Assembly (NCBI GenBank): GCA_927797885.1
Contig: OV696605.1
Span: 3,075,157 to 3,139,156 of the forward strand
Length of the DNA: 64,000 nt
From: Gloeomargaritales cyanobacterium VI4D9
GTDB taxonomy: Bacteria; Cyanobacteriota; Cyanobacteriia; Gloeomargaritales; Gloeomargaritaceae
Direction of reading: 5' to 3'
A program made the position numbers and the translations under genes. The notes under the pieces were generated by a model that was not told the DNA's origin, ran no database searches, and saw only the letters and a list, made by a program, of their open reading frames with translations. Numbering within the stretch: the stretch's first letter is position 1; the number at the start of each line of letters is the position of its first letter. Shown here in pieces: positions 5,103 through 22,366 of this stretch.

Positions 5103-6374
5103 ATGACGATATTAATCACCACAATTGGCAACACAGAATACACAGAGACAACCTATTACTTTTCCGATCAGACCCGTTACAGAACTTGCTATGTGGCAGA
5201 AGCAATCGCTTGTATAAAAAATGTGGATCAAGTGGTTTTCCTAATGACCGAACAAGCCTGTGTGAAACATTGGCAGAAACTACAAGAGCGTTTTCATAGT
5301 CTTGAACCTGTTATTAGCATTACGAAAAGGGATATACCGGATGGCAAAAATGAGACAGAAACTTGGCAAATTTTTGATGCTTTAGTAGACACGGTACCTG
5401 CCAACTCCCAAGTGATTTTTGACATTACCCATGCGTTTCGTTCGATTCCTCTATTCGTATTATTAGCTACCTTGTTACTTCGCAAAGCAAAACAGGTAGA
5501 AATCCAGGGATTATACTATGGTATGTATCAGAAAAACGAGATAGAAACTCCAATCATTGACTTGACTCCAGCAGTGCGACTGATAGACTGGCTGACTGCA
5601 ACGGATAAATTCATCTCGACTGGCTCAGCGGTTGAGCTAGGAGCTTTATTACGGACAGTACACCAGGATTTTTATCATTCACAAAAATTGATAAAAGATA
5701 TACATAAACCAACCAAACTACAAAATTTTGGTCGAGCGATTCAAGATGTTTCTCGCTCTATTGAATTGATAAGACCTGTACATTTGCTCCGAGAAGATTT
5801 ACCGAAATTGATAAAGCATTCTACGCCAGAACTCGAACAAGAAATTGGGGTGTTTTCTAAGCCATTTGGTCTAATGTTAAAACAGGTTCGTCAGAGCTAT
5901 ATACCACTTGCTCTATCTCATGCCAACGCCAGTGCCATGGAACAAATATACAAGCAGTTTTTACTTTTGCAATGGTACGTAGAAAAGCAATTTACAATTC
6001 ATGCCCTCTTGATGGCGCGTGAGTGGGTAGTTTCTGCCTTATGTTTATTAGATGGACGAGAAGATTATCGCAAACGTGAGCATCGTGAACAGATTGAGAA
6101 CCAACTTAACGCTATTAGATTTGGAAAGGATCATCCAGGGTCAAATCTAACAATTACAGCTCATGTTACAGACGTTAAAACCCTTGTGGATTTCTGGAGC
6201 CGCTTGGGTGACTATCGTAATGATATTGCCCATGTACAAATGAATGAATCTCCGCTTGATAGTCAGGCTCTAGAGAAATTTGCTCTTAGGGAGTTAATAC
6301 CCACTTTGCAATCCCTTTTCCCCTCTCTAACCCAATCACCCGAATTGGAAGTGGTTAATTCTAACAGATGTTAA
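5103..6374 (+). CDS. csx2: CARF-HEPN ribonuclease, Csx1/Csx2 family (DxTHG type)
   Basis: A 423-residue protein. The N-terminal CARF domain begins MTILITTIGN and carries FDITHAFRS at 106-114, the DxTHG motif of the TM1812/TIGR02221 family with Ala in place of Gly. The C-terminal region is helical and ends in a HEPN domain with RNDIAH (R372-H377), the Rx4H active site of metal-independent RNases. The family cuts single-stranded RNA when cyclic oligoadenylate binds the CARF dimer. With the CARF-RelE protein three genes away, the locus encodes two different RNases that could share one signal. A near-perfect AAAGGAGGT precedes the start. The end overlaps nothing functional; cmr2 starts 30 bases later. 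Confidence 0.9.
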   Translation: MTILITTIGNTEYTETTYYFSDQTRYRTCYVAEAIACIKNVDQVVFLMTEQACVKHWQKLQERFHSLEPVISITKRDIPDGKNETETWQIFDALVDTVPANSQVIFDITHAFRSIPLFVLLATLLLRKAKQVEIQGLYYGMYQKNEIETPIIDLTPAVRLIDWLTATDKFISTGSAVELGALLRTVHQDFYHSQKLIKDIHKPTKLQNFGRAIQDVSRSIELIRPVHLLREDLPKLIKHSTPELEQEIGVFSKPFGLMLKQVRQSYIPLALSHANASAMEQIYKQFLLLQWYVEKQFTIHALLMAREWVVSALCLLDGREDYRKREHREQIENQLNAIRFGKDHPGSNLTITAHVTDVKTLVDFWSRLGDYRNDIAHVQMNESPLDSQALEKFALRELIPTLQSLFPSLTQSPELEVVNSNRC

Positions 6375-6403
6375 CCTCAAATTCACTGGAAGGAGAAGGA
6401 GCG

Positions 6404-9396
6404 ATGACTCAAAAGCACTACTGGCAAGCCAAAATCTGGGGGCTACTACACGACCCAGCCTTGAAAGCGCTGCATGATGCTTCGGGTCGGGCAAGGGAAG
6501 GAGTTTGGCCGTTATTAGAGGTCATGCAGGATTGGGTTTCTCCCAAATCAGATGGTGCTTCTGATTATCAGAAATATATTGGTGATGCGGATTTGATTGC
6601 CTCTGCCAGTGACCGCTCAGCCATTGGCAATTTGCCTGTTGCCATTGATTACCAAACAATTGACCGGGGTTTGACGCTTGGCACCGGACTGGAAATCACT
6701 CACTTATTATCAGCGGAGGCAATTTTCTGGGAATTGCAAGATGATGAGCATTACAGCTTACAGATAGCTGGGAACCGAGCAGAGTATTTACGAGACTGCG
6801 AAAAGTCAGTTATTCCCGATTCGATTAAAGCATCTGACGATTTTCAAAAAGTATTTTGGTGGTTCTGGCGATGCTTCCCAGAGGCAATCTGTCGAAAGTT
6901 TAATGATGATAGTTTGATGCTCATGCCTGCGGAAACCCGCTTACCAGATGGTTCGATTTGGAGTCATGCAAGTATCACTTCGGCTCTGGCGGGATGTTTG
7001 GCAGGATATACTGCGCCTCAGAAAACCCGTCCCCATCTAGCTACGTTTACATTTAGTCCCATCCAAGAACTCATCAAAGCGAGCCGTAAAATGCGCGATT
7101 TTTGGGCAGGGTCTTGGTTATTGCATTATCTATCAGCCAGAATTTGCTGGAAGTTAGCCCTGAAATACGGGCCGGACTGCTTACTTTATCCCAGTTTATA
7201 TGCTCAGCCCTTGATTGATTATTGGTTACTAGAGAAGTACCCAGACTTCTCAGATTTAGTTAAAAAACCGTCGGCGGAAAAATTGCTAACAGCAGGGTTT
7301 CCTAATGTAATTATGGTGCTTTTACCGGAGGACAAAGTTAAAGCCGCTATGCAAACGGCTCAGCAAACGTTACGGGAAGAGTGGCTACATTTAGGTAAAT
7401 TAGCTTTTAACTTTTTACAACAGAGATACTGGATGCAGCATAGGCTTGATGAATCTGATTTGACTTGGCAAGGCTGGCTAGAACATCAATGGCAACATTA
7501 CTGGGCGGCGGTTCCGTTGGGTCATCCTAACTGTCGATTAAAAGATACAGGAATTCTGCGCTCTCAAGGTTCTATTGATGAGGATCAATGGGTAACCACT
7601 CAGAATCAAACCTATCACTTGACTGATAAACAGCGATTATTTGTAGATAAAGAGCTAACATTTTTACGAGCTATTTTTTTGGATAAAAATAACAATCCTC
7701 GTCCTTATAAGCCCGGTGTTAACATTGGCTCTTGGTGGGCAGCGGTGGTGGATGAAGCCCGCAAGGTACAAGCTGCTTGTAAAAATGCTCGTGATTGGGA
7801 GTTACCCGTAGCTTTTGGACCTCGTAGCACTATCTCTGGTATTGGCTCAGTGGTGCATCCTTCTCCGGGTAATTCCTGGATTACAGAGGGAGAGAGCCAG
7901 CACTATTGGGCACGAAGTGCAGGACTTTTTGATGGGCGAGAACAGCTCAATGCCACTGAAACTGTTAAGCGGGTTCTACATAAAATTTTGCCTGAACTTT
8001 TTTCTGATTGTGGGGAGGAGAAAATTGCTACATCCTATCCTGATTTGACTGGTGGCGTTGCTGGTTATCTTAAAACGCATAGCCAAAAAGAGAGAAAACA
8101 TTTTGAACGTGCTTGCAAAGCCATTCAACAAGAGCATCCCTGGGTCAATGAGGTGATTCAGGATATGCACAATAAATGGGGAATCCCTTGGGCAGATGAA
8201 CGAGAAAATGTACAAGAATTTCAGTATCATCCCCGTTTGTTAAATGCAGGTTGGCTGGTAGAAGATGCCGATGTTGATGATGTAATAAAAAAAGAGTATC
8301 AAAGTGAAATTAATAACACTCTAAAGCGGTTCTATCCAGGCGTTAATCCAGCGAGTTGGTACGTGATTGGGGCAGGGGATGGCGACGGCATGAGTGATTG
8401 GCTCAAGGGTAAAAAAATGAAGCAATACTATAACTACTTGCCTACACCACTTAAAAATCTTGCTGATGGTCACAATGAACAAATTGGTCATGTGTTTAAT
8501 ACTCAGGAACTAGAAGAGGTTGGCTCTCAATTTAGTGAGTTTGTTAAGGATCAAGAAATCAAGAAACGCATGGGGCCATCCACTCACAATGCTTTGAGCC
8601 GGGCATTATTGGATTTTTCCAATCAACTTGTGCCTTATTTGACAGAGCGGCGGTATGCAGGTCGTCTGATTTATGGAGGTGGGGATGATGTTTTAGCTTA
8701 TACTAATTTATGGGAGTGGGACGAGTGGTTGTGGGATATTCGTCAGTGTTTTCGGGGGCAAGCCGACCCTGCTGGAGAATTTGATAATCAAGGCAACTAC
8801 TGGCAATGGAAGGGGTCAGAATTACCTAAAGGATTGAGCAAGCGTCCTTTATTTACAATGGGTTCAACAGCAACAATTAGTTTTGGTGTTGTGATTGCTC
8901 ATCAATCCGTACCATTAGCGATTGCTTTAGAGAATCTTTGGGAAGCAGAAAACCAAGCAAAGAAATATAAAGATGAGCGGGAGAATAAAAAAGATGCTGT
9001 GCAGGTGCGGGTACTTTATGCCAATGGTAATCAGCTACAGGCTACGAGTAAATTTGAGACGTTCGATAAATGGAAAGACATTTTGGACTTTGACTGGAAG
9101 AAATACAATTTAGAGGAAGAGCAAGGTTCTCTTTTTGAACAAGCCGCACAAATTTGGGAGCAACATCCTGCGCCGATTCAAGAAGCCATCTCAAAGTGGG
9201 TAGTTGTTTTTTGTGAACGGCGGGATGTATTCCAAAGCAAAGAAGATGCCAAGAATGATTTCCACCAAAAGCTCTGTGCATTTCTGAAGCATATCTGGGA
9301 GTATAGCCAAGTAGAGGAACGAGACAGGCAAATTCAAAATTGGTTAAAATTAGCGGCTTTTAATTTACGCAATCGCTCTATTAGACTTGGAGAGTG

Positions 9397-9397
<1 letters not shown>
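6404..9397 (+). CDS. cmr2: Cas10/Cmr2, type III-B large subunit with HD and GGDD motifs
   Basis: A 997-residue Cas10 of the Cmr2 type. The N terminus holds the nuclease HD motifs (WGLLHDPALKALHD, residues 12-25). The palm carries GGDD at about 759-762 (RLIYGGGDDVLAYT), the site that makes cyclic oligoadenylate from ATP. A proline/glycine-rich hydrophobic segment, GSTATISFGVVIAHQS, follows, as in other Cmr2 proteins. Both activities look intact: target-RNA-stimulated DNA cutting and second-messenger synthesis. I use ATG 6404, which has AAGGAGAAGGAG just upstream, not the in-frame ATG at 6368. The stop TGA overlaps a tiny hydrophobic reading frame (9397-9534) before cmr3. Confidence 0.95.
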
Positions 9398-11469
<2,072 letters not shown>

Positions 11470-11473
<4 letters not shown>

Positions 11474-12147
11474 CAATTTTAGTGGGTAATTTAGTTAAAC
11501 CCTATGCTCAATGGCAAGTGGCTACTTGGCAAGACTATGAACGGCTGAGAGACGATCCATCTTTGGAGCGAGTACAGCTATTCTATTATAATCATCAACT
11601 TTTAGTAGAAAATATGGGATGGGAAGGAATTTTACATTCAGAAGTGCGTGAACTTCTGTCAGCAATTTTGGTAATGTGGCTAATGCGACATCCTGAGATT
11701 AAATCTAAAATCTTGGGTAGTTGTTTAATGGAAAAAGCAGGCAAACAAGCCGCCGCCCCTGATATTCTGGTATATTTAGGAGAAAATCTACTCCAATATC
11801 AAAAAGGTGAATCCAGAAGAATCAATCTCGATCAACAACGCCCTCCTGATTTAGTGATTGAAGTTGCCGATACTACTTTGGATTCTGATTTAGATCAAAA
11901 GAAACACCTCTACGCCGCATTAGGTATTCCTGAATACTGGGTCATTGATGCCCAAGGTAGCCAAGTTTTTATTTTCATTCTTAGCAATCAAGAGTACTAT
12001 AGAAGTGAAGTCTCTCAACTAATATCAGGGTTTACTGAGCAACTTTTATCTGAAGCGATAGATCAAATGAAGCTAGGTTCAAATATCTCAGCCGCCTCTT
12101 GGTTCAGCCAACAGTTATCACAATCCCTATCTACGGAGGTATCCTAA
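11470..12147 (+). CDS. Uma2-family (DUF820) PD-(D/E)XK-fold protein, operon copy 1
   Basis: A 225-residue Uma2/DUF820 protein. The core has APDILVYLGE (first acidic residue) and PPDLVIEVADTTLDSDLDQKKHLYAALGIPEYWVID, with the acidic E and the K-rich helix expected for a restriction-like nuclease fold. Uma2 proteins are very numerous in cyanobacteria and mostly uncharacterised. This copy is joined at both ends: ATGA overlap with cmr4 and TAATG overlap with cmr5. Nothing suggests a broken gene, since the core residues are present. A function inside the Cmr system is inference from position only. Confidence 0.85.
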
Positions 12148-12644
12148 TGTCTAAAAAGAACAAACATGGCTCTCAATTTCCGAAGCCGAATTCGCCATCA
12201 ACTCCCGCAGTTACCCCTGCACCTGTTGCTACTGTTCCCAATCCAAGACAACCAAGAAGTGAAGCTATGTTATTTGATCCACGCACAATAGGAACGCCTG
12301 TTTATGAACGGTTGAATGAGCTTAGGAATACCACTACAGATCAAGCCAAGCTCAAAAAACAAAAAAGCATGGCTCAGGAGATTTACACCTATCTCTCCAC
12401 CTGGGGATTGATGCGTCTCAAGGCTGAAGAAACTATTCTTAAAGATGGCAGGGAAGACCCTGTAAGGATATTCTTTGAGTGTCTGCAAGAGCTTTCTGGT
12501 AACCCAGATTTAAGTTTGGATGATCTAAAAAACTTGAGTGCTGATGACTATCTTGGTCTAACTGGGCTTGCTTTGGAAATTGCCCGTGAATTTAGTTTTT
12601 GGGTATCTGCTGTTTATCACGATGTAACAGGAGATGATCGCTAA
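12147..12644 (+). CDS. cmr5: Cmr5, small subunit of the type III-B complex
   Basis: About 165 residues. A low-complexity, proline-rich, basic N terminus (residues 1-40) is followed by a helical body with ERLNELRNTTTDQAKLKKQKSMAQEIYTYLSTWGLMRLKAEE, matching Cmr5 in the helical small-subunit role that binds the displaced or target strand along the Cmr4 filament. The usual Cmr5 is 120-150 residues, and the extra length is the N-terminal tail. It starts at ATG 12147, sharing its first base with the Uma2 stop TAA, and its own TAA shares the A with the next Uma2 start (12644). Confidence 0.85.
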   Translation: MSKKNKHGSQFPKPNSPSTPAVTPAPVATVPNPRQPRSEAMLFDPRTIGTPVYERLNELRNTTTDQAKLKKQKSMAQEIYTYLSTWGLMRLKAEETILKDGREDPVRIFFECLQELSGNPDLSLDDLKNLSADDYLGLTGLALEIAREFSFWVSAVYHDVTGDDR

Positions 12645-13267
12645 TGACTGTATCTATTCCTCTTAAGTGCATTAGTTTACGAGAAGGAAGCACTATCACC
12701 CTTCATTCTCAAACTTGGCAGGATTGGGAAAACATTGTTGAGGAATTGGGCGAAGACCGCCATACTCGCATTGCCTATTATCAAGGTACGTTGGAAATTA
12801 TGTCTCCTTTATCCAGACACGAGCGTCCCCATCGCATTATTGGGGATATTATTAAGGCAATCCTAGACGCACAGGGGCGAGATTGGGAAGATTTTGGCTC
12901 CACAACTTTTTATCGCAAAGACAGGGCAGGTGTTGAACCTGATACTTGTTTTTATGTAACTAACGCATCATTAGTGCGTGATTGTATGGAAAGGATTGAT
13001 GTTGATATTTATCCGCCGCCTGATTTGGCAATTGAGTCAGATGCAACTTCTAAAACTTTTCTCTCGGCTTATGAGGCAATTGCTGTGCCTGAAATTTGGA
13101 TATATCATAATAATAGCCCCAAAATATTTTTGCTGAGCAATGGACAGTACAGTGAGTCTGAGAGTAGTTTATTGTTTCCAGATTTGCCAGTTAAGACACT
13201 GATTCCCCAATTGGTCAAACAAGGAATGGCTATTGGGGCAAGTGCCATGTTAAGAGAGTTTCGGTAA
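12644..13267 (+). CDS. Uma2-family (DUF820) PD-(D/E)XK-fold protein, operon copy 2
   Basis: A 207-residue Uma2 protein of a different subgroup from copy 1: LHSQTWQDWENIVEELGEDRHTRIAYYQGTLEIMSP, then GVEPDTCFYV and PPDLAIESDATSKTF...EAIAVPEIWIY. The acidic residues of the core (D in EPD, E in AIESD) are present. Its start overlaps the cmr5 stop (TAATG). A 50-base gap with a strong AGGAGG then leads to the cmr6-cmr1 fusion, the widest gap inside this part of the operon except for cmr2-cmr3. Confidence 0.85.
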   Translation: MTVSIPLKCISLREGSTITLHSQTWQDWENIVEELGEDRHTRIAYYQGTLEIMSPLSRHERPHRIIGDIIKAILDAQGRDWEDFGSTTFYRKDRAGVEPDTCFYVTNASLVRDCMERIDVDIYPPPDLAIESDATSKTFLSAYEAIAVPEIWIYHNNSPKIFLLSNGQYSESESSLLFPDLPVKTLIPQLVKQGMAIGASAMLREFR

Positions 13268-13317
13268 TCCCTCACAGATATTCTCAAAAAGAGTTAGTTT
13301 CTTAGGAGGACCTAGCC

Positions 13318-15207
13318 ATGCCATCTACAAGAACTAGACCTGCAAATAACAACCCAGGGGGTCATGGTGTTGGTAATCAAGGCAATAATCATGGCGGCGG
13401 TCAGGGAAGTGGTGGTCATCATCCCTCTAATCATCATCCTGAGCCATCACCTTGGTTAGGTCATCCATTAAACCCCAATCCGCAACCTCATGAAACAGCG
13501 AGTTTTGTTGAGTATTTGCGGTGGATGAGAACACCCGATGCCCAACATAAAGAAGGAACACGAGTTCAACTGGTGAGTCATGCAGAAAGTCGGGGCAACT
13601 ATATCCAGCGACTGCAAGAAATGAATCGCCGCACTCGTTTGATTGCTGGGGACAGTAATACCTTTACATTGACTTGTCCGTGGCGGATTCGTGTCGGTGG
13701 TACCAAAGGGCCCGAAGAAATGTTATTGCCTGCTTTTGATGCGTTAGGAATGCCTTATATTCCTAGTTCTACGCTACGGGGTGTTACACGGGCACAAGGA
13801 GTTCGTGAATTTATGGCGCAAGGGTCGTCCCGTGCCCAGGCAGAGCGAGAAATTGCTAAGTATTTAGGGGATTTGGATGCTGAGGAGAAGCACAAGGCTG
13901 GCAAGATTGTCTTTTTAGATGCGTACCCTGTAGCTACAAATGAGCTAAAATCCGGTGGTCTGGCAGTAGATATTGCTAATAATATCTGGAGTTGGGAGGG
14001 TAATAACCTGAGATACAGTCCAAATCCCAATTTGTTTTTTTCGCTGAAGCAGGCAAAGTTTTTGATTGGTATTCGTAAGGGAATTCATTGCACGGATGAG
14101 ATGTTAGCAACGGTTAAAGAATGGCTCATCAAAGGTTTGGCTCAAGGAATCGGCTCACAAATTAATTCGGGTTACGGGCGGCTGGTGAGTGAACAAACCT
14201 TGCGTAATTCTAGGGAATTTTTGCGTTTGCCGTTTGAATTAAAAGGGCAACTCATTCATGGGCGACAAACAGTTACTTGGAATGCAGCGAAAAATAGATT
14301 CAATAACCACTCTATTGCCGAAGTGCGCCCCGTTGCATTCAAAAATATGATGCGTTATTGGTTTCGAGCATTTGGATTGGGTGTATTACCAGCTTCTGAG
14401 GTGCAGGAATGGGAAGGTAAATTATTTGGGGCAATTACACCGCACCCGCAACGGGGATGGATTCAGCTTGAGATTTTAGATGGAAAAATTGTGCAAAGAG
14501 AGCCGCAACCGAATCATCAAGGTAAAAATGATCCAGTGGGTCAACAATCGGGTATTTTAGTACTTTCCCTATCCGATGAATGCCCTGATGAGCGAAAAGA
14601 ATCGAGCCAACGATTATTTCGCAATTTAGCTTGGCTGATGTTTCATCTTGGGGGTGTCGGACAAGGTGCAAGAAGACCTTGCTATTCTCGTAGAAATAGG
14701 GATACAGCACCCTGGTGGCGGGGTTCTACTTTGATACCGAGAACAAATGATAAATTCCGGGAATTGCCTGAGTCTGCCCGTGAGTTTGCAGAACTGTTTC
14801 GCAGAAGAATTAAAAATTTCTTTGAAGCATTAGCAACTGTTACAGGACAACCAATTAATCCCCAACAATTGAGAATATGTACTGAACCCACTCAACAACG
14901 CTGGACAGAGGCAGTAGATACCCATTGCCGAATTCTGATTACTAAAGTGGATGCTGAGAGGAACAAACCCTATGCGTTGGCAAAACTGCATCAACTAGGC
15001 AGGCGAGGTGAACAATATGACCGTTTTTTGTGTGGAGGCGTGGGAAAAGACGTAATCCCCTCTCCAGTGTGGATTGCAGATTCTGGCGGTTATGAAGTCG
15101 TTACCGTATTTGGTGCAACGGCAGACCCACGCAGGCGATTTGTTGACGAACTGAGAAGGGAAGGAGCCATTCAAATTTTCCCTTTGAACCAAGGAGGAAA
15201 TAGATGA
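13318..15207 (+). CDS. Cmr6-Cmr1 fusion protein, type III-B RAMP subunits
   Basis: A 629-residue protein made of two RAMP units. Residues 1-60 are Gly/His/Asn/Pro-rich and probably disordered. About 100-300 match Cmr6: MPYIPSSTLRGVTRAQG, KIVFLDAYPV, and the closing glycine-rich loop IGSQINSGYGRLVS. From about 303 on, FELKGQLIHGRQ, EVRPVAFKNMMRYWFRAFG and EGKLFGAITPH match Cmr1, ending with a C-terminal segment of about 240 residues. Cmr1 and Cmr6 occupy the head of the Cmr filament near the 3-prime part of the crRNA, so fusing them keeps neighbours together. No frameshift or stop separates the halves. The gene overlaps the next Uma2 (ATGA, 15204). Confidence 0.9.
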   Translation: MPSTRTRPANNNPGGHGVGNQGNNHGGGQGSGGHHPSNHHPEPSPWLGHPLNPNPQPHETASFVEYLRWMRTPDAQHKEGTRVQLVSHAESRGNYIQRLQEMNRRTRLIAGDSNTFTLTCPWRIRVGGTKGPEEMLLPAFDALGMPYIPSSTLRGVTRAQGVREFMAQGSSRAQAEREIAKYLGDLDAEEKHKAGKIVFLDAYPVATNELKSGGLAVDIANNIWSWEGNNLRYSPNPNLFFSLKQAKFLIGIRKGIHCTDEMLATVKEWLIKGLAQGIGSQINSGYGRLVSEQTLRNSREFLRLPFELKGQLIHGRQTVTWNAAKNRFNNHSIAEVRPVAFKNMMRYWFRAFGLGVLPASEVQEWEGKLFGAITPHPQRGWIQLEILDGKIVQREPQPNHQGKNDPVGQQSGILVLSLSDECPDERKESSQRLFRNLAWLMFHLGGVGQGARRPCYSRRNRDTAPWWRGSTLIPRTNDKFRELPESAREFAELFRRRIKNFFEALATVTGQPINPQQLRICTEPTQQRWTEAVDTHCRILITKVDAERNKPYALAKLHQLGRRGEQYDRFLCGGVGKDVIPSPVWIADSGGYEVVTVFGATADPRRRFVDELRREGAIQIFPLNQGGNR

Positions 15208-15869
15208 CAATTGCTACTGCAAAGATTTTACCGAATGATCAGGTTTCAGTGGAAAGGCAAACTTGGCAAGCAGGTTCCTGGGAAACTTTTCTCGCTCTTT
15301 CTCAGCAACCTACTTATCAAAAAGCTAAAGCCTATTATTTCCAAGGAGCTTATCAATTTACTATGGGTGTGGGAGCAAATCACGGTGATATTAATGCGGT
15401 TATTTTCTTATTGCTCAGTTTCTATTGCACAATTCGCAATTTGCCGCACAAAGCTTATGTGAACACTAGCTATCGCAAAGATGGTATCCGAGAGTGTCAG
15501 CCTGATTTATCCTATTACTTTCTGGATGGAGATAATCCCCTTCCCGCAGGTAGCAGTGTTATCAATCTCAACGAGTATGCTCCCCCAGACTTGGCGATTG
15601 AAATTGCTGATTCTTCGTTAGCTGATGACTTGGGTATGAAGCGTTTGCTCTATGAGGAAATGCAGGTGAAGGAATACTGGGTGGTGGATGTATCATCCCT
15701 CGAAATTTTTGCCTTTGCTGTGGATCAAAATTTAGGCAGTCGGAGAATTCAGCAGTCTGTTGTATTAGAAGGGTTGGCAATGGATGCCATCACTGAGGCA
15801 CTGCACAAAAGTCAAGAACTGGATAACGCCCAATTAGGGCAATGGTGGATGGGAAAAATTAAGCCATAG
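15204..15869 (+). CDS. Uma2-family (DUF820) PD-(D/E)XK-fold protein, operon copy 3
   Basis: A 221-residue Uma2 protein close in architecture to copy 1: VERQTWQAGSWETFLALSQQPTYQKAKAYYFQGAYQF, RECQPDLSYYFL and PPDLAIEIADSSLADDLGMKRLLYEEMQVKEYWVVD. The active-site acidic residues are kept. It overlaps the cmr6-cmr1 stop by four bases. After its end a 108-bp family-B repeat begins 25 bases downstream, so this copy is now the last gene of the tight effector run. Confidence 0.85.
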   Translation: MTIATAKILPNDQVSVERQTWQAGSWETFLALSQQPTYQKAKAYYFQGAYQFTMGVGANHGDINAVIFLLLSFYCTIRNLPHKAYVNTSYRKDGIRECQPDLSYYFLDGDNPLPAGSSVINLNEYAPPDLAIEIADSSLADDLGMKRLLYEEMQVKEYWVVDVSSLEIFAFAVDQNLGSRRIQQSVVLEGLAMDAITEALHKSQELDNAQLGQWWMGKIKP

Positions 15870-16060: not shown

Positions 16061-16648
16061 ATGGTTGCCCATTCCCAATCTCTCTTGCTTTCGGTGGCTG
16101 AATATCTTCAGATGGAACGTATCAGTCTGGTCAAACACGAATATATTAATGGCGCAATTTATGCAATGGCTGGGGCAAATGATGCCCATGTCACTATTGC
16201 CTTGAATATGGCGGCTCTATTACGAAATCATATCCGGGGCAGTGGCTGTCGGGTGTACATCACAGATATGAAGGTACGCCTCGAAACCCCTAATTGTTTT
16301 TATTACCCGGATATTATGGTTACGTGCAACAGTCGTGACCGGGAAAATTCTACCTATAAATGCTTTCCTAAGCTGATTGTGGAGGTACTTTCAGCATCAA
16401 CAGAAGCCTTTGACCGGGGGGATAAATTTGCTGATTACCAAACCCTGACAAGCCTTGAAGAATACGTTTTGGTTAACACCCGACACCAACGGGTGGAGTG
16501 CTTTCGTCGGCATGGTGATGGTATGTGGATACTGCAATCCTATACCCCGGAATCAAAATACTTTACCCTCCAGAGCGTGGAATTGACCGCAACATTGGCA
16601 GAATTGTACGAGGATGTGGAATTAGCAACAACCCCCAATGAACCATAA
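16061..16648 (+). CDS. Uma2-family (DUF820) PD-(D/E)XK-fold protein, copy 4
   Basis: A 195-residue protein of the classic, abundant cyanobacterial Uma2 subgroup: SVAEYLQMERISLVKHEYINGAIYAMAG, then YYPDIMVTC, PKLIVEVLSASTEAFDRGDKFADYQTL and EEYVLVNT. The core D, E and D/K residues of the fold are present. Unlike copies 1-3 it is not overlapped with a cmr gene; it stands after a MITE with its own likely promoter, so it could be an ordinary genomic Uma2 that happens to sit here. Confidence 0.85.
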   Translation: MVAHSQSLLLSVAEYLQMERISLVKHEYINGAIYAMAGANDAHVTIALNMAALLRNHIRGSGCRVYITDMKVRLETPNCFYYPDIMVTCNSRDRENSTYKCFPKLIVEVLSASTEAFDRGDKFADYQTLTSLEEYVLVNTRHQRVECFRRHGDGMWILQSYTPESKYFTLQSVELTATLAELYEDVELATTPNEP

Positions 16649-17098: not shown

Positions 17099-17351
17099 TC
17101 GGTGGTTAATGCGACGGGCGAGAAATTTCCTAGCCGCCCTGGTCAATGGAGGAATTACGCTCACAATTTTATTGATTGCTCCTTTGGGTTTGGCGGCGGT
17201 AATGATTAATACAATTCTCGTCATGGCGGGCACTTTTTTGGGGGAGGAAATCACCGACTTTTTTGTGGGCATCCTACGCAAAAGTATCGCCGGAGAAATT
17301 GCACCAGATAACCCCCATACCAGTATCACTCGCTATCGTGACCGGGAGTAA
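17088..17351 (+). CDS. Csx18-like small membrane protein coupled to cas1
   Basis: An 87-residue protein: basic N terminus (RWLMRRARNF), then NGGITLTILLIAPLGLAAVMINTILVMAGTFL, which spans one long or two short membrane helices, and a charged tail. The IAPLGLAAV...NT pattern resembles the cyanobacterial CRISPR-associated protein Csx18 as I remember it, so the name is tentative. It overlaps the previous membrane gene by 11 bases and cas1 by one base (TAATG at 17351). No function is established for this family; a role in adaptation is inferred only from the coupling. Confidence 0.55.
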   Translation: MGPNRWLMRRARNFLAALVNGGITLTILLIAPLGLAAVMINTILVMAGTFLGEEITDFFVGILRKSIAGEIAPDNPHTSITRYRDRE

Positions 17352-18340
17352 TGCGGACGCTTTATCTCTCGCAACAGGGGTGCTGGGTAAGGCTCAAACA
17401 GGAGTCTTTGCAGGTATTATCCGGCAGACAAGAACTGTACACTGTACCCCTGCCTACCCTGGAGCAGGTCTTGATTTTTGGGCACGCCCAGATGACGACC
17501 CAGGCGATTCATGGGTGTCTGCGCCGCAACATTCCGATTGCTTACTTGTCAACGATGGGCTACTGCTATGGGCGGGTCATGCCGCTGGAGCGGGGGTATC
17601 GGGGTTTGGCACAACGGCAACAGGCGTTACCGGAGTCATGGCGGTTGCAGACGGCGCAGCGGATTGTCCGGGCGAAACTGCTCAACAGTCGGGTGGTATT
17701 GATGCGTCAACTGCGGGAAACGGCTACGGAATCAGGGGCACTGGCGGTACAGAGTTTGGGTTATCTGGCTGTGCAAGCGTTGCAGGCACGCAGTCGGGAG
17801 CAATTGCGGGGGATCGAGGGGGCAGGGGCGGCGGTGTATTTCCCGGAATTGGGGAATTGCCTACGGCAACCGGGGTTTGCGCTCCTGATACGAACACGCC
17901 GACCGCCAACCAATCCCGCTAATGCTCTGCTGAGTTTTGGCTATAGCCTCCTGTGGAATCATTTATTTAGCCTGATTGAATTACAGGATTTACATCCATA
18001 CGAGGGGTGTTTTCATCAAAGCAATCCCAAACACGCCGCCTTAGTCTCTGATTTGTTAGAGGAATTTCGTGCGCCAATTGTTGATTCCTTAATGTTGAGT
18101 TTAGTGAATCGTCGTGTCATAAATTCTGAGGAGGATTTTCACTATGAAAAGGGGGGATGTTTTTTGAATGAATCGGGGCGAAAAAAGTTTTTGAAAAGTT
18201 TTGTGGAGCGGATGTCAGTTAAAGTCAATACTCAGAATGGAACCCAACCTTTTTGGGATGTATTAACGCAACAGGTACGCCAATATAAACAGTGTATTTT
18301 TAATCCAGAACAGGTGTACAAACCCTATCAGATTCGTTAA
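17351..18340 (+). CDS. cas1: Cas1, CRISPR integrase
   Basis: A 329-residue Cas1. The metal ligands are in place: E156 in GIEGAGAAVYF, H222 in CFHQSNPKHAALVSDLLEEFR, with D234 and E237/E238 in the same stretch. Cas1 joins with Cas2 to insert new spacers at the leader end of the array. The start TAATG shares a base with the Csx18-like gene. There is no reverse transcriptase domain, so spacers should come from DNA unless another protein helps. Cas2 follows after 44 bases. Confidence 0.95.
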   Translation: MRTLYLSQQGCWVRLKQESLQVLSGRQELYTVPLPTLEQVLIFGHAQMTTQAIHGCLRRNIPIAYLSTMGYCYGRVMPLERGYRGLAQRQQALPESWRLQTAQRIVRAKLLNSRVVLMRQLRETATESGALAVQSLGYLAVQALQARSREQLRGIEGAGAAVYFPELGNCLRQPGFALLIRTRRPPTNPANALLSFGYSLLWNHLFSLIELQDLHPYEGCFHQSNPKHAALVSDLLEEFRAPIVDSLMLSLVNRRVINSEEDFHYEKGGCFLNESGRKKFLKSFVERMSVKVNTQNGTQPFWDVLTQQVRQYKQCIFNPEQVYKPYQIR

Positions 18341-18384: not shown

Positions 18385-18663
18385 ATGTTATTGTATATTA
18401 TTTGTTATGATACTCCTTCTGATAAGCGACGCAAAAAGATGGCAGATTTATTAGAGGGGTATGGGCATAGAGTGCAATATAGTGTGTTTGAATGTGTTCT
18501 CCCGCTAAATAAATATCAAGAGTTAAAGAAGCGTTTACGTCAGCGATACAAAGAGGGGGAAGATTGCATTCGATTTTATCCCATTTCGCAACACACAATC
18601 GGGCAAGTCGAGTTATGGGGTGGACCGCCGCTCGCCCAGGAACCAGATTCGGTGATTATCTAA
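18385..18663 (+). CDS. cas2: Cas2, CRISPR adaptation subunit
   Basis: A 92-residue ferredoxin-like protein: LLYIICYDTPSDKRRKKMADLLEGYG with the conserved Asp in strand 1 (YDTP), QYSVFECVL, and RFYPISQHT. Cas2 dimerises between two Cas1 dimers. TAGAGGTG upstream gives the ribosome binding site. This is the last gene before the leader and array, 180 bases away. Confidence 0.95.
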   Translation: MLLYIICYDTPSDKRRKKMADLLEGYGHRVQYSVFECVLPLNKYQELKKRLRQRYKEGEDCIRFYPISQHTIGQVELWGGPPLAQEPDSVII

Positions 18664-18843
18664 TGCGAGGATCGAGCCAAAACCGGGAAATGCCGATTTT
18701 TCCGTTGGGATGCTCGATATGGCTCCCAGACGAGGTTTGGGGCGATTTTTTGGGATCAGAAACAGTACAATGTATAACAATTTTGCACGATGCTCGCAAA
18801 TGCCCCTTGCCATGCCCTATCCATGCGGGTTTTAATAGGGTGC
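18664..18843 (+). promoter_or_regulatory. CRISPR leader with candidate promoter
   Basis: The 180 bases between cas2 and repeat 1 form the leader. TTGGGA (18750-18755) and TATAAC (18773-18778) are separated by 17 bases and make a reasonable housekeeping promoter for the array. The leader ends TTTTAATAGGGTG directly before a run of seven C that merges with the first repeat, which makes the leader-repeat border ambiguous by several bases. Confidence 0.55.
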
Positions 18844-21800
18844 CCCCCCACTCGCTGGGGAACCCAATAAATTGGAAACAACCCTATGAGGTGAGCATCG
18901 TCACCGTGCCAGCACCCCCCACTCGCTGGGGAACCCAATAAATTGGAAACTACACTGTTAGACAATTGGCGACCTTGGGAAATTTGGACACCCCCCACTC
19001 GCTGGGGAACCCAATAAATTGGAAACCCCTACGGAATACCGGCATTACCGTTGGGATGATGCTCCCCCCACTCGCTGGGGAACCCAATAAATTGGAAACA
19101 GATGATTTTGGATCATTATGGGCGAGAGATAGAAGTCCCCCCACTCGCTGGGGAACCCAATAAATTGGAAACTTGAGAGCGTCCCCGCCAATCGTGTCGT
19201 GCCCTGACCCCCCACTCGCTGGGGAACCCAATAAATTGGAAACTCTGTACTGGTAATAAGCGCAGATGCCAATCATCTAACCCCCACTCGCTGGGGAACC
19301 CAATAAATTGGAAACGCCGGTCAGATTGCCAGTGAAATTTGCCAGTGAAATTCCCCCCACTCGCTGGGGAACCCAATAAATTGGAAACTCCTCAACAACA
19401 AACCCACCCGCAGAAAAACCCACCCCCCACTCGCTGGGGAACCCAATAAATTGGAAACTTCTGTTGGTTGAAACTGAGTGGGAACGAATTGTACCCCCCA
19501 CTCGCTGGGGAACCCAATAAATTGGAAACTGGATTAGCGCAAATGAGGAGGCTTGGATTATTCGTCCCCCCACTCGCTGGGGAACCCAATAAATTGGAAA
19601 CTGCAATTCATCCATTAGCCTACCCCCGTTTGCGCCACCCCCCACTCGCTGGGGAACCCAATAAATTGGAAACTCCACAGGAAAAAAACGATGAGTATTT
19701 TTGTCTCTCCCCCCCACTCGCTGGGGAACCCAATAAATTGGAAACTTCGGGCGGGATTAATCTAACCGACTTTCAGCTCGTGGCCCCCCACTCGCTGGGG
19801 AACCCAATAAATTGGAAACGAACTAAATTCATGAGACATACATCCATCTCCTATTCCCCCCACTCGCTGGGGAACCCAATAAATTGGAAACCAACTTCAA
19901 ACGTGGTAATGGGACTTCGGCTTAATCCCCCACTCGCTGGGGAACCCAATAAATTGGAAACCAAAAAAATGATGGAGCGTCATGCTTCATTACAAAGCCC
20001 CCACTCGCTGGGGAACCCAATAAATTGGAAACTCCATCCCTTCCATCCCTTCCATCCCTTCCATCTCTTCCCCCACTCGCTGGGGAACCCAATAAATTGG
20101 AAACTTCCAAAAGGAAAAACGGAATGCCCTGCAATCAGCACCCCACTCGCTGGGGAACCCAATAAATTGGAAACTCGCTGGATGTTCAGTTAGGCATTCA
20201 ACATGACGGCAAAACCCCACTCGCTGGGGAACCCAATAAATTGGAAACTCGCTAATCACAATTCCAATCCGGGTGATGTCATCAACCCCCACTCGCTGGG
20301 GAACCCAATAAATTGGAAACGCCTTGTGGCTGCTTGTTTGACTACGCTTACCTTCTCGATCCCCACTCGCTGGGGAACCCAATAAATTGGAAACGCCGAG
20401 AATTTTGTGAGGCGGAACGTAGCGCTCAGCAGCCCCACTCGCTGGGGAACCCAATAAATTGGAAACGCCCGCGTATTCCTCCGGCGCGTCGTCCCCCAGC
20501 AGGATCCCCACTCGCTGGGGAACCCAATAAATTGGAAACGCTTCTGGCAACGGACACCACTGCCAGCCGTTATGACGCCCCACTCGCTGGGGAACCCAAT
20601 AAATTGGAAACGCCCAGCAGTTGACGGCGGATTTGTTTCACATCTTCTCCCGCCCCCACTCGCTGGGGAACCCAATAAATTGGAAACGCCCCTCCAAAAG
20701 TGGCCTATCGGTGGACGCCATTATGCCCCACTCGCTGGGGAACCCAATAAATTGGAAACGCTGTAAAAGTAAACGAGATTTTTTAGTTTCCCACAGTGCC
20801 CCACTCGCTGGGGAACCCAATAAATTGGAAACGCCCAACTGTCCTCAATCCCTGGCAATTCCCCCACCGTTCCCCACTCGCTGGGGAACCCAATAAATTG
20901 GAAACGTCGCACCTTCAGGGAGAGTTAAGGATAAACTGAACTATGCCCCACTCGCTGGGGAACCCAATAAATTGGAAACGTCGTATAAGAACTGCGGAAT
21001 CTTAAAAATAAAAAAACCCCCACTCGCTGGGGAACCCAATAAATTGGAAACGATGACCAAGTCGGGCTGGCATTGCATCCCCACGACCCCCACTCGCTGG
21101 GGAACCCAATAAATTGGAAACCGCTCGGTAATGAGAGGCTGTATCAACTCCGTATCGATCCCCACTCGCTGGGGAACCCAATAAATTGGAAACCGCTGAC
21201 ACTACAGTGCTGAAAGCCACTGTTGGAAACAAAAACCCCACTCGCTGGGGAACCCAATAAATTGGAAACCGTGGAAGCACCCCGAGCGAACTCGATGTAC
21301 TTCCGCCCCCCACTCGCTGGGGAACCCAATAAATTGGAAACTGTTCCCACAGTGGCTTTCCAGCGGACGCCATTATGCCCCCACTCGCTGGGGAACCCAA
21401 TAAATTGGAAACTGAACTGTACTTTCGCGCGGTACATATGCACTCCAGCTCCCCACTCGCTGGGGAACCCAATAAATTGGAAACTAGAACAGCCGGGGCA
21501 GGCTGTTGTTGGTAGGGTAAAATCCCCCACTCGCTGGGGAACCCAATAAATTGGAAACTAGGGGGGAGGCACAGGGCATGGTTCTTCTCCGGACGCCCCC
21601 ACTCGCTGGGGAACCCAATAAATTGGAAACTGAGTTAATTGGAATGGGTGCTACCGATGCGCTCAACCCCCACTCGCTGGGGAACCCAATAAATTGGAAA
21701 CTAGCAATTGAACAGGAGGTTTCCATGATTGAGTTAAACCCCCACTCGCTGGGGAACCCAATAAATTGGAAACGATCCTCTGCCAGTTTCCGTCAATATA

Positions 21801-22349
21801 AAACCGCATCTACCCCACTCGCTGGGGAACCCAATAAATTGGAAACGATCAACCGTTAGTGGATAACGGATGGACTATTGTTAACCCCACTCGCTGGGGA
21901 ACCCAATAAATTGGAAACGCTGCCCAGGGCGTGAATCGCCGTGGGGAACCAGCCCCCCACTCGCTGGGGAACCCAATAAATTGGAAACTTTTCGTAATTG
22001 TCAATCCCACTGCTACCAGACAAACCCCCACTCGCTGGGGAACCCAATAAATTGGAAACTATTAGTCCTTCCAATTCATCTAAATATTGAACTTCCCCCA
22101 CTCGCTGGGGAACCCAATAAATTGGAAACTTCCTTGGGTTTTTAATAGCCAGACCAGCCAATACGATTTCCCCACTCGCTGGGGAACCCAATAAATTGGA
22201 AACTAGCCTTCTTTGACTTCGTGTTCTTGGGGCAGCGCTTCTCCTCCCCACTCGCTGGGGAACCCAATAAATTGGAAACTAGTAGTACACTAAGTACGCA
22301 CTCTCATTGGGGTGCTCACCCCCACTCGCTGGGGAACCCAATAAATTGG
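18844..22349 (+). CRISPR. CRISPR array, 49 repeats and 48 spacers, type III-B
   Basis: The invariant 34-base core is CCCCACTCGCTGGGG, then AAC, then CCAATAAATTGG-AAAC (shown in parts). It holds two perfect five-pair hairpins: CCCCA/TGGGG around CTCGC, and CCAAT/ATTGG around AA. Spacing between repeats is 70-76 bases, so spacers are about 34-42. The 5-prime C-run is mostly six in repeats 1-15 and mostly four or five afterwards. The leader is on the left, since cas2 and a promoter lie there and the last repeat is cut short at 22349. crRNAs are read on the plus strand and their tag would end in TTGGAAAC. Repeats are otherwise identical along the array, as expected of an active or recent locus. 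Confidence 0.98.
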
Positions 22350-22366
22350 TAGTGCCATCCAAGTAA
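22348..22366. repeat. IS1-family terminal repeat joined to the last CRISPR repeat
   Basis: GGTAGTGCCATCCAAGTAA starts on the GG of the last repeat and replaces its final AAAC. Its reverse complement differs at one base from the end of the IS1 transposase remnant at 33102-33120. It also resembles the general IS1 end (GGTnnTGCTnnCAA). No transposase follows, so this is a solitary end left by insertion and deletion. Confidence 0.6.

Follow-up and report, generated by a model that had tools for sequence, protein, structure and literature searches.

Cas1-Cas2 joins new DNA first at the leader-repeat border and then, with its other end, at the repeat-spacer border. This two-step integration, with the leader-repeat border being attacked first, is established (PMC6895254). 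In type II-A, I-B, and I-E systems the second cut is described as being set by a motif inside the repeat, and control of repeat duplication by a molecular ruler has been reported for type II-A of S. thermophilus (Kim et al. 2019, PMC6895254; the I-E and I-B systems are cited there). For a type III Cas6-RT-Cas1-Cas2 integrase, full-site integrations were found to duplicate the adjacent 35 bp (PMC8102632). The length of a repeat is usually invisible as a mechanism because both of its ends stay put. The array described here has lost a base on which the position of the leader-side end apparently depends. Both ends would thereby have moved and left a readable record, so that the measuring of a repeat by Cas1-Cas2 can be tested on a natural array.

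The window, which is the whole stretch of 64,000 nucleotides analyzed from the Gloeomargaritales cyanobacterium VI4D9 (contig OV696605.1), carries a CRISPR locus, the effector genes, cas1, cas2, leader, and array of which lie on the forward strand. The locus is of type III-B, the effector genes for Cas10/Cmr2, Cmr3, Cmr4, Cmr5, and Cmr6 being present (6368–15207), and it has adaptation genes of its own, since cas1 (17351–18340; PF01867, E = 4.8e-82) and cas2 (18385–18663; PF09827, E = 2.1e-22) adjoin the array. Among and just past the cmr genes there are also four genes of the Uma2 family of putative nucleases (11470–12147, 12644–13267, 15204–15869, and 16061–16648). The leader (18664–18842), which was aligned with that of the congener G002, ends with GGGTG followed by seven C. 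The array (18843–22349), which starts right after cas1 and cas2, has 49 repeats and 48 spacers. Each repeat is composed of a run of 4–7 C and a 30-nt core, ACTCGCTGGGGAACCCAATAAATTGGAAAC, which is invariant in all repeats except the last. In the recent part (repeats 1–15, counted from the leader; 18843–19891) the C-run is 6 bases long in 12 of the 15 repeats, the exceptions being repeats 1 and 13 with seven C and repeat 7 with five, and in repeats 19–34 (20141–21269) it is mostly 4 bases long. The change from old to recent is stepwise, namely from 4 at repeat 19 via 5-5-5 at repeats 18–16 to 6 at repeat 15. The terminal repeat (22319–22353) is without AAAC: its core breaks off at TTGG, and the next four bases, TAGT, are those with which spacer 48 begins, which suggests that AAAC was lost and that the sharing of prefixes described below runs on into the flank.

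Neighboring spacers of this array begin with the same bases, and they do so in blocks. All prefixes listed in an initial annotation of the sequence were found: spacers 19 and 20 share TCGCT, 21–28 (20321–20871) GC, 29 and 30 GTCG, 32 and 33 CGCT (34 begins with CG), 41 and 42 GATC, and both 37–38 and 47–48 TAG; also, spacers 21–31 do all begin with G. The shared prefix of neighbors has a mean length of 1.40 bases (47 spacer pairs) vs. 0.53 (sd 0.12) when the order of the spacers is shuffled, their composition being kept. None of 20,000 shuffles reached the observed mean, by which the sharing is above chance, as had been anticipated, and by which chance or composition is ruled out as its source. 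At least two bases are shared by 17 neighbor pairs (4.9 in shuffles) and at least four by 5 pairs (0.6 in shuffles; p = 0.0002). Neighbor identity exceeds chance at spacer positions 1–4; none of positions 5–10 is raised in the shuffle test, and at the far end of the spacers there is no sharing beyond chance except at position −2 (p = 0.03, uncorrected). Sharing drops with the distance between spacers (1.40, 0.93, 0.87, 0.66, 0.60, and 0.43 bases for lags 1–6), a decay that would result if each acquisition passed bases on to the following one. In the six-C part the sharing is weak, in agreement with the initial annotation, which had, however, limited it to the first base at most: pair 10–11 shares two bases. 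Pair 15–16 shares CAA, the intervening repeat being C5. It should be mentioned that the prefixes TCGCT and CGCT of spacers 19, 20, 32, and 33 (starting at 20175, 20249, 21122, and 21194) match the interior of the repeat (ACTCGCTGGGG), as does TCGCTGG of spacer 19, which could be chance or possibly the trace of template switching.

How many bases are shared depends on the C-run. When the acquisition of spacer i is scored by the C-run of the repeat between spacers i and i + 1, mean sharing is 2.41 bases for C4 (n = 17), 1.20 for C5 (n = 15), and 0.43 for C6 (n = 14), and the two quantities are related, as predicted, with a Spearman rho of −0.63 over the whole array. The relation was also examined in the older part alone (spacers 16–48), because there the recent C6 stretch cannot drive the result, and it was found to hold (rho = −0.59, permutation p = 0.0005). 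It is a property of the intervening repeat: for the repeats one step to either side, rho in the older part is only −0.21 and −0.08. At least one base is shared by 17 of 17 C4 pairs and by 9 of the other 15 pairs of the older part (Fisher p = 0.006). In a likelihood comparison allowing for chance extra C and chance extra matches, with both models equal in the number of parameters, a model in which C-run and carried bases add up to a constant beats independence by an AIC of 19 overall and of 10 in the older part.

The constant is mostly fitted as 5 or 6, equivalent to a duplicated window of 35 or 36 nt, with a minor tail to 38. The proposal from the initial inspection that a stretch of constant length is duplicated is thus supported, with near-constancy and with 35–36 nt and the tail in place of the 36–38 nt then given. 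For example, the duplicated unit of spacers 21–28 would fit CCCC plus core plus GC, which is 36 nt. It should be noted, however, that the duplicated length varies somewhat. Only a single base is shared in five of the C4 pairs and no base at all in five of the C5 pairs, and therefore windows of both 35 and 36 nt are needed; four C4 pairs share 4–5 bases, above what a 36-nt window yields, which suggests for these few a window of 37–38 nt or luck. A jitter of at least 1 nt is required in any model. Simulations of the window model reproduce both the sharing per C-run class and its decay with distance, and in simulations with no window the observed sharing was never reached. Two features of a ruler are found in the array: the duplicated length stays nearly constant when one boundary shifts (35–36 nt, with some jitter), and with an inward shift of the near boundary the new repeat copy contains bases from the spacer that was first before.

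If the shared bases are copied from the end of the repeat, they should add to the length of the captured DNA. The lengths, a line of evidence that makes no use of sequence, agree with this: each shared base goes along with a gain of 0.8 nt in apparent spacer length (r = 0.54), and the C4 spacers average 39.1 nt vs. 37.2 nt in congeners, a difference of 1.9 nt (p = 1e-4). When 5 nt are subtracted per interval, 37.4 nt remain, matching the spacer length of the congeners. Evidence also comes from targets. Spacers 26, 27, 33, and 35 have related targets: spacer 27 (20760–20798; target-related to spacer 35, TTCCCACAGTG) reads ..TAGTTTCCCACAGTG, spacer 33 (21194–21235), which is from the target family of spacer 35 on the opposite strand, reads ..TTGTTTCCAACAGTGGCTTTC on its reverse strand, and a spacer for the same target in another array of the same genome reads ..TGTTTCCCACAGTCACTTTC. 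Spacer 35 (21342–21377), TGTTCCCACAGTGGCTTTCC, agrees with these from the third base onward, and its first two bases are TG where spacers 27 and 33 and the spacer of the other array have GT. The start of spacer 35 is thus foreign to its target family and equal to that of spacer 36, which is a single case, but exactly what is predicted from a duplicated length that stays near-constant. Exact protospacers were found neither in phage, plasmid, and viral collections (IMG/VR, 8 scans) nor in genome contigs, so that just one spacer directly shows shared bases foreign to its target; a protein-level search for the target of spacers 26, 27, 33, and 35 gave nothing. A 19-base match of spacer 24 (in L112) was discarded because it does not extend.

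In relatives the same repeat family behaves differently. The comparison set comprised 12 arrays with at least six repeats each; of the organisms they come from, four are congeners and seven are more distant cyanobacteria. Their repeat is (C/G)TCCCC plus 30 nt, together 36 nt, with the first two bases essentially invariant, and their 506 neighbor pairs share first bases to no greater extent than by chance (mean 0.37 when one duplicated spacer is left out), for which reason sharing as a general trait of the repeat family was rejected. Nor is it a genome-wide trait: in an array of another CRISPR type with 128 repeats, also from this genome, sharing is at chance level and only whole-spacer duplicates are seen. 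This other array (L101; own genome C1:2376000–2392000) has between two perfect repeats one interval of 513 nt (6355–6867), which looks like an uninterrupted piece of phage-like coding DNA, with a truncated tail-completion/neck-like protein among its products (PHROG 26, E = 6e-5), and possibly is a very long captured spacer. That repeats with a short C-run carry bases of the old first spacer, as had been predicted, is supported by the shuffles and the C-run relation and, beyond what was available initially, by the spacer lengths and the arrays of the relatives.

The T at the second position of the repeat is missing from repeats of the family in only one of 390 cyanobacterial genomes of the class, that of the window. 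At the leader end, GGGTG-CCCCCCC is found here vs. GGGTG-ACTCCCC, of equal length, in the nearest congener G002. A relict pair of family repeats elsewhere in the genome still has CTCCCC, indicating that the loss of T is recent and local; the relict (L067, 1449–1550; own genome C1:2205950) adjoins the end of a transposase-like reading frame. Cas1 is 93% identical to that of G002 and 81% to that of G001, the arrays of both of which are regular. Since Cas1 and Cas2 are 93–95% identical to those of the nearest congener, a cause in the DNA appears more likely than a changed enzyme, as judged from these sequences. In the relatives a changed base at position −6 occurs in three repeats only (L084 repeats 10 and 13, L127 repeat 17), the neighbors of which share 4, 1, and 1 first bases. 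This may be a small replicate of the slip considered below, to which little weight is given because all three changed bases are T and could be plain C-to-T changes. In G001 there is, away from the main array, a single repeat that is preceded by another, nearly complete leader copy (L062, G001:C1:2987158, minus strand), possibly a mini-CRISPR or a regulatory RNA.

Most probably these findings reflect a type III-B Cas1-Cas2 that duplicates a near-constant 35–36 nt and in which an inward slip of the leader-side cut pushed the far cut into the old spacer. The ancestral repeat would have been CTCCCC plus the 30-nt core, 36 nt in all, and the T at position −5 has been lost from the leader-end repeat in this lineage, giving a run of C. 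In the older acquisitions the leader-side cut would then have been made 4 or 5 bases before the core rather than 6 and, with the duplicated length hardly changing, the cut on the spacer side would have been shifted by 1–2 bases into the spacer that was then first. Each new spacer would thus be preceded by a repeat copy bearing the first bases of its older neighbor, and these would persist over successive acquisitions until an event of shorter reach replaced them, which would yield blocks. In the last approximately 15 acquisitions, in which sharing nearly ceases, the cut was presumably back at 6 before the core, perhaps because the C-run beside the leader had become longer or because the preference of the enzyme had shifted. 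The slip was likely triggered when the repeat lost the conserved CT/GT with which it had begun, the loss of T being, as we infer, its cause, and this points to the T at repeat position 2 as a determinant of positioning. It is implied that in many of the older crRNAs of this organism the first one or two guide bases are not derived from the target.

Other explanations have to be weighed against this. That spacers begin alike by chance or target selection, e.g., owing to PAM remnants or the composition of their source, is very improbable: the first base is indeed dominated by T and G (24 and 16 of 48), but the shuffles, none of which attains the observed sharing, preserve this composition, the prefixes change abruptly between blocks, the bias is absent in congeners with a Cas1 81–93% identical, and the extra bases add length. 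Less remote, although still unlikely, is that both cuts are imprecise independently of each other, the leader-side cut wandering within the C-run and the spacer-side cut overshooting by 0–4 bases, so that the overshoot by itself would produce the sharing, with a link to the C-run arising from changes between eras alone. Several summary statistics of a simulation of independent cuts overlap the data, and the jitter is needed here as well. However, the link persists within the older part and with the intervening repeat only, the AIC is worse by 10–19, and approximately three C4 pairs without sharing are predicted whereas none is seen.

More room has to be left for a variant of the preferred window mechanism, compatible with it and differing in the trigger, although we do not quite favor it: the cut would be anchored to the leader, and the C-run beside the leader would itself have changed its length by slippage from 4 to 5 to 6, in contrast to a C-run whose length stayed the same and within which the cut site was chosen imprecisely. 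The stepwise C-runs of repeats 19–15 are as expected from this, and the present leader end, GGGTG plus C7, places the cut at the ancestral distance of 6 bases from the core. On the other hand, the C-runs of the older part show no significant memory between events, and a contraction followed by re-expansion is needed, since the present leader has the ancestral length.

Returning to the duplication of a near-constant length, the question is from where the length is measured. It may fairly be inferred, as had been assumed initially, that the leader-side cut, which is made first, is the point from which the position of the far cut is measured. A ruler that sets the second cut solely at a fixed distance from an internal motif, whatever lies upstream, would leave this array, with its unchanging core, free of carried bases. 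As read indirectly from the history of the array, this is not what is found, since the core is invariant and yet the carried bases vary with the C-run. The array thus seems to fit a length measured from the first cut better than a motif-fixed second cut, and on balance we consider it somewhat probable that the first cut, over the whole length, and not an internal motif serves as the reference for the second, the array being a natural record of 48 events of paired cuts. Engineered repeats have already revealed length rulers; the record of such a ruler in a natural array appears to be new, no paper describing this having been found in the non-subscription literature searched. The statistic employed, prefix sharing of neighbors vs. 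the end of the repeat, is applicable to all public arrays.

The closest systems can be compared as follows. As in type II-A of S. thermophilus (PMC6895254), a length constraint sets the second integration site. There, however, a motif within the repeat determines this site, which lies at a short and fixed distance from it, whereas here the 30-nt core is invariant and the second site nevertheless moves with the first, the record being a natural array of 48 acquisitions. The near-constant length is in line with the 35-bp duplications by the type III RT-Cas1-Cas2 complex (PMC8102632), which were observed in vitro with an RT-Cas1 fusion, whereas here Cas1 is unfused and the length was read from a natural array. 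The cyanobacterial type III-B arrays with the repeat (C/G)TCCCCACTCGCTGGGGAA..TGGAAAC have the same repeat family, leader motif, and Cas1-Cas2; in 12 of the 12 arrays analyzed, the repeat has 36 nt and neighbors do not share first bases, and only in the array described here has the T been lost.
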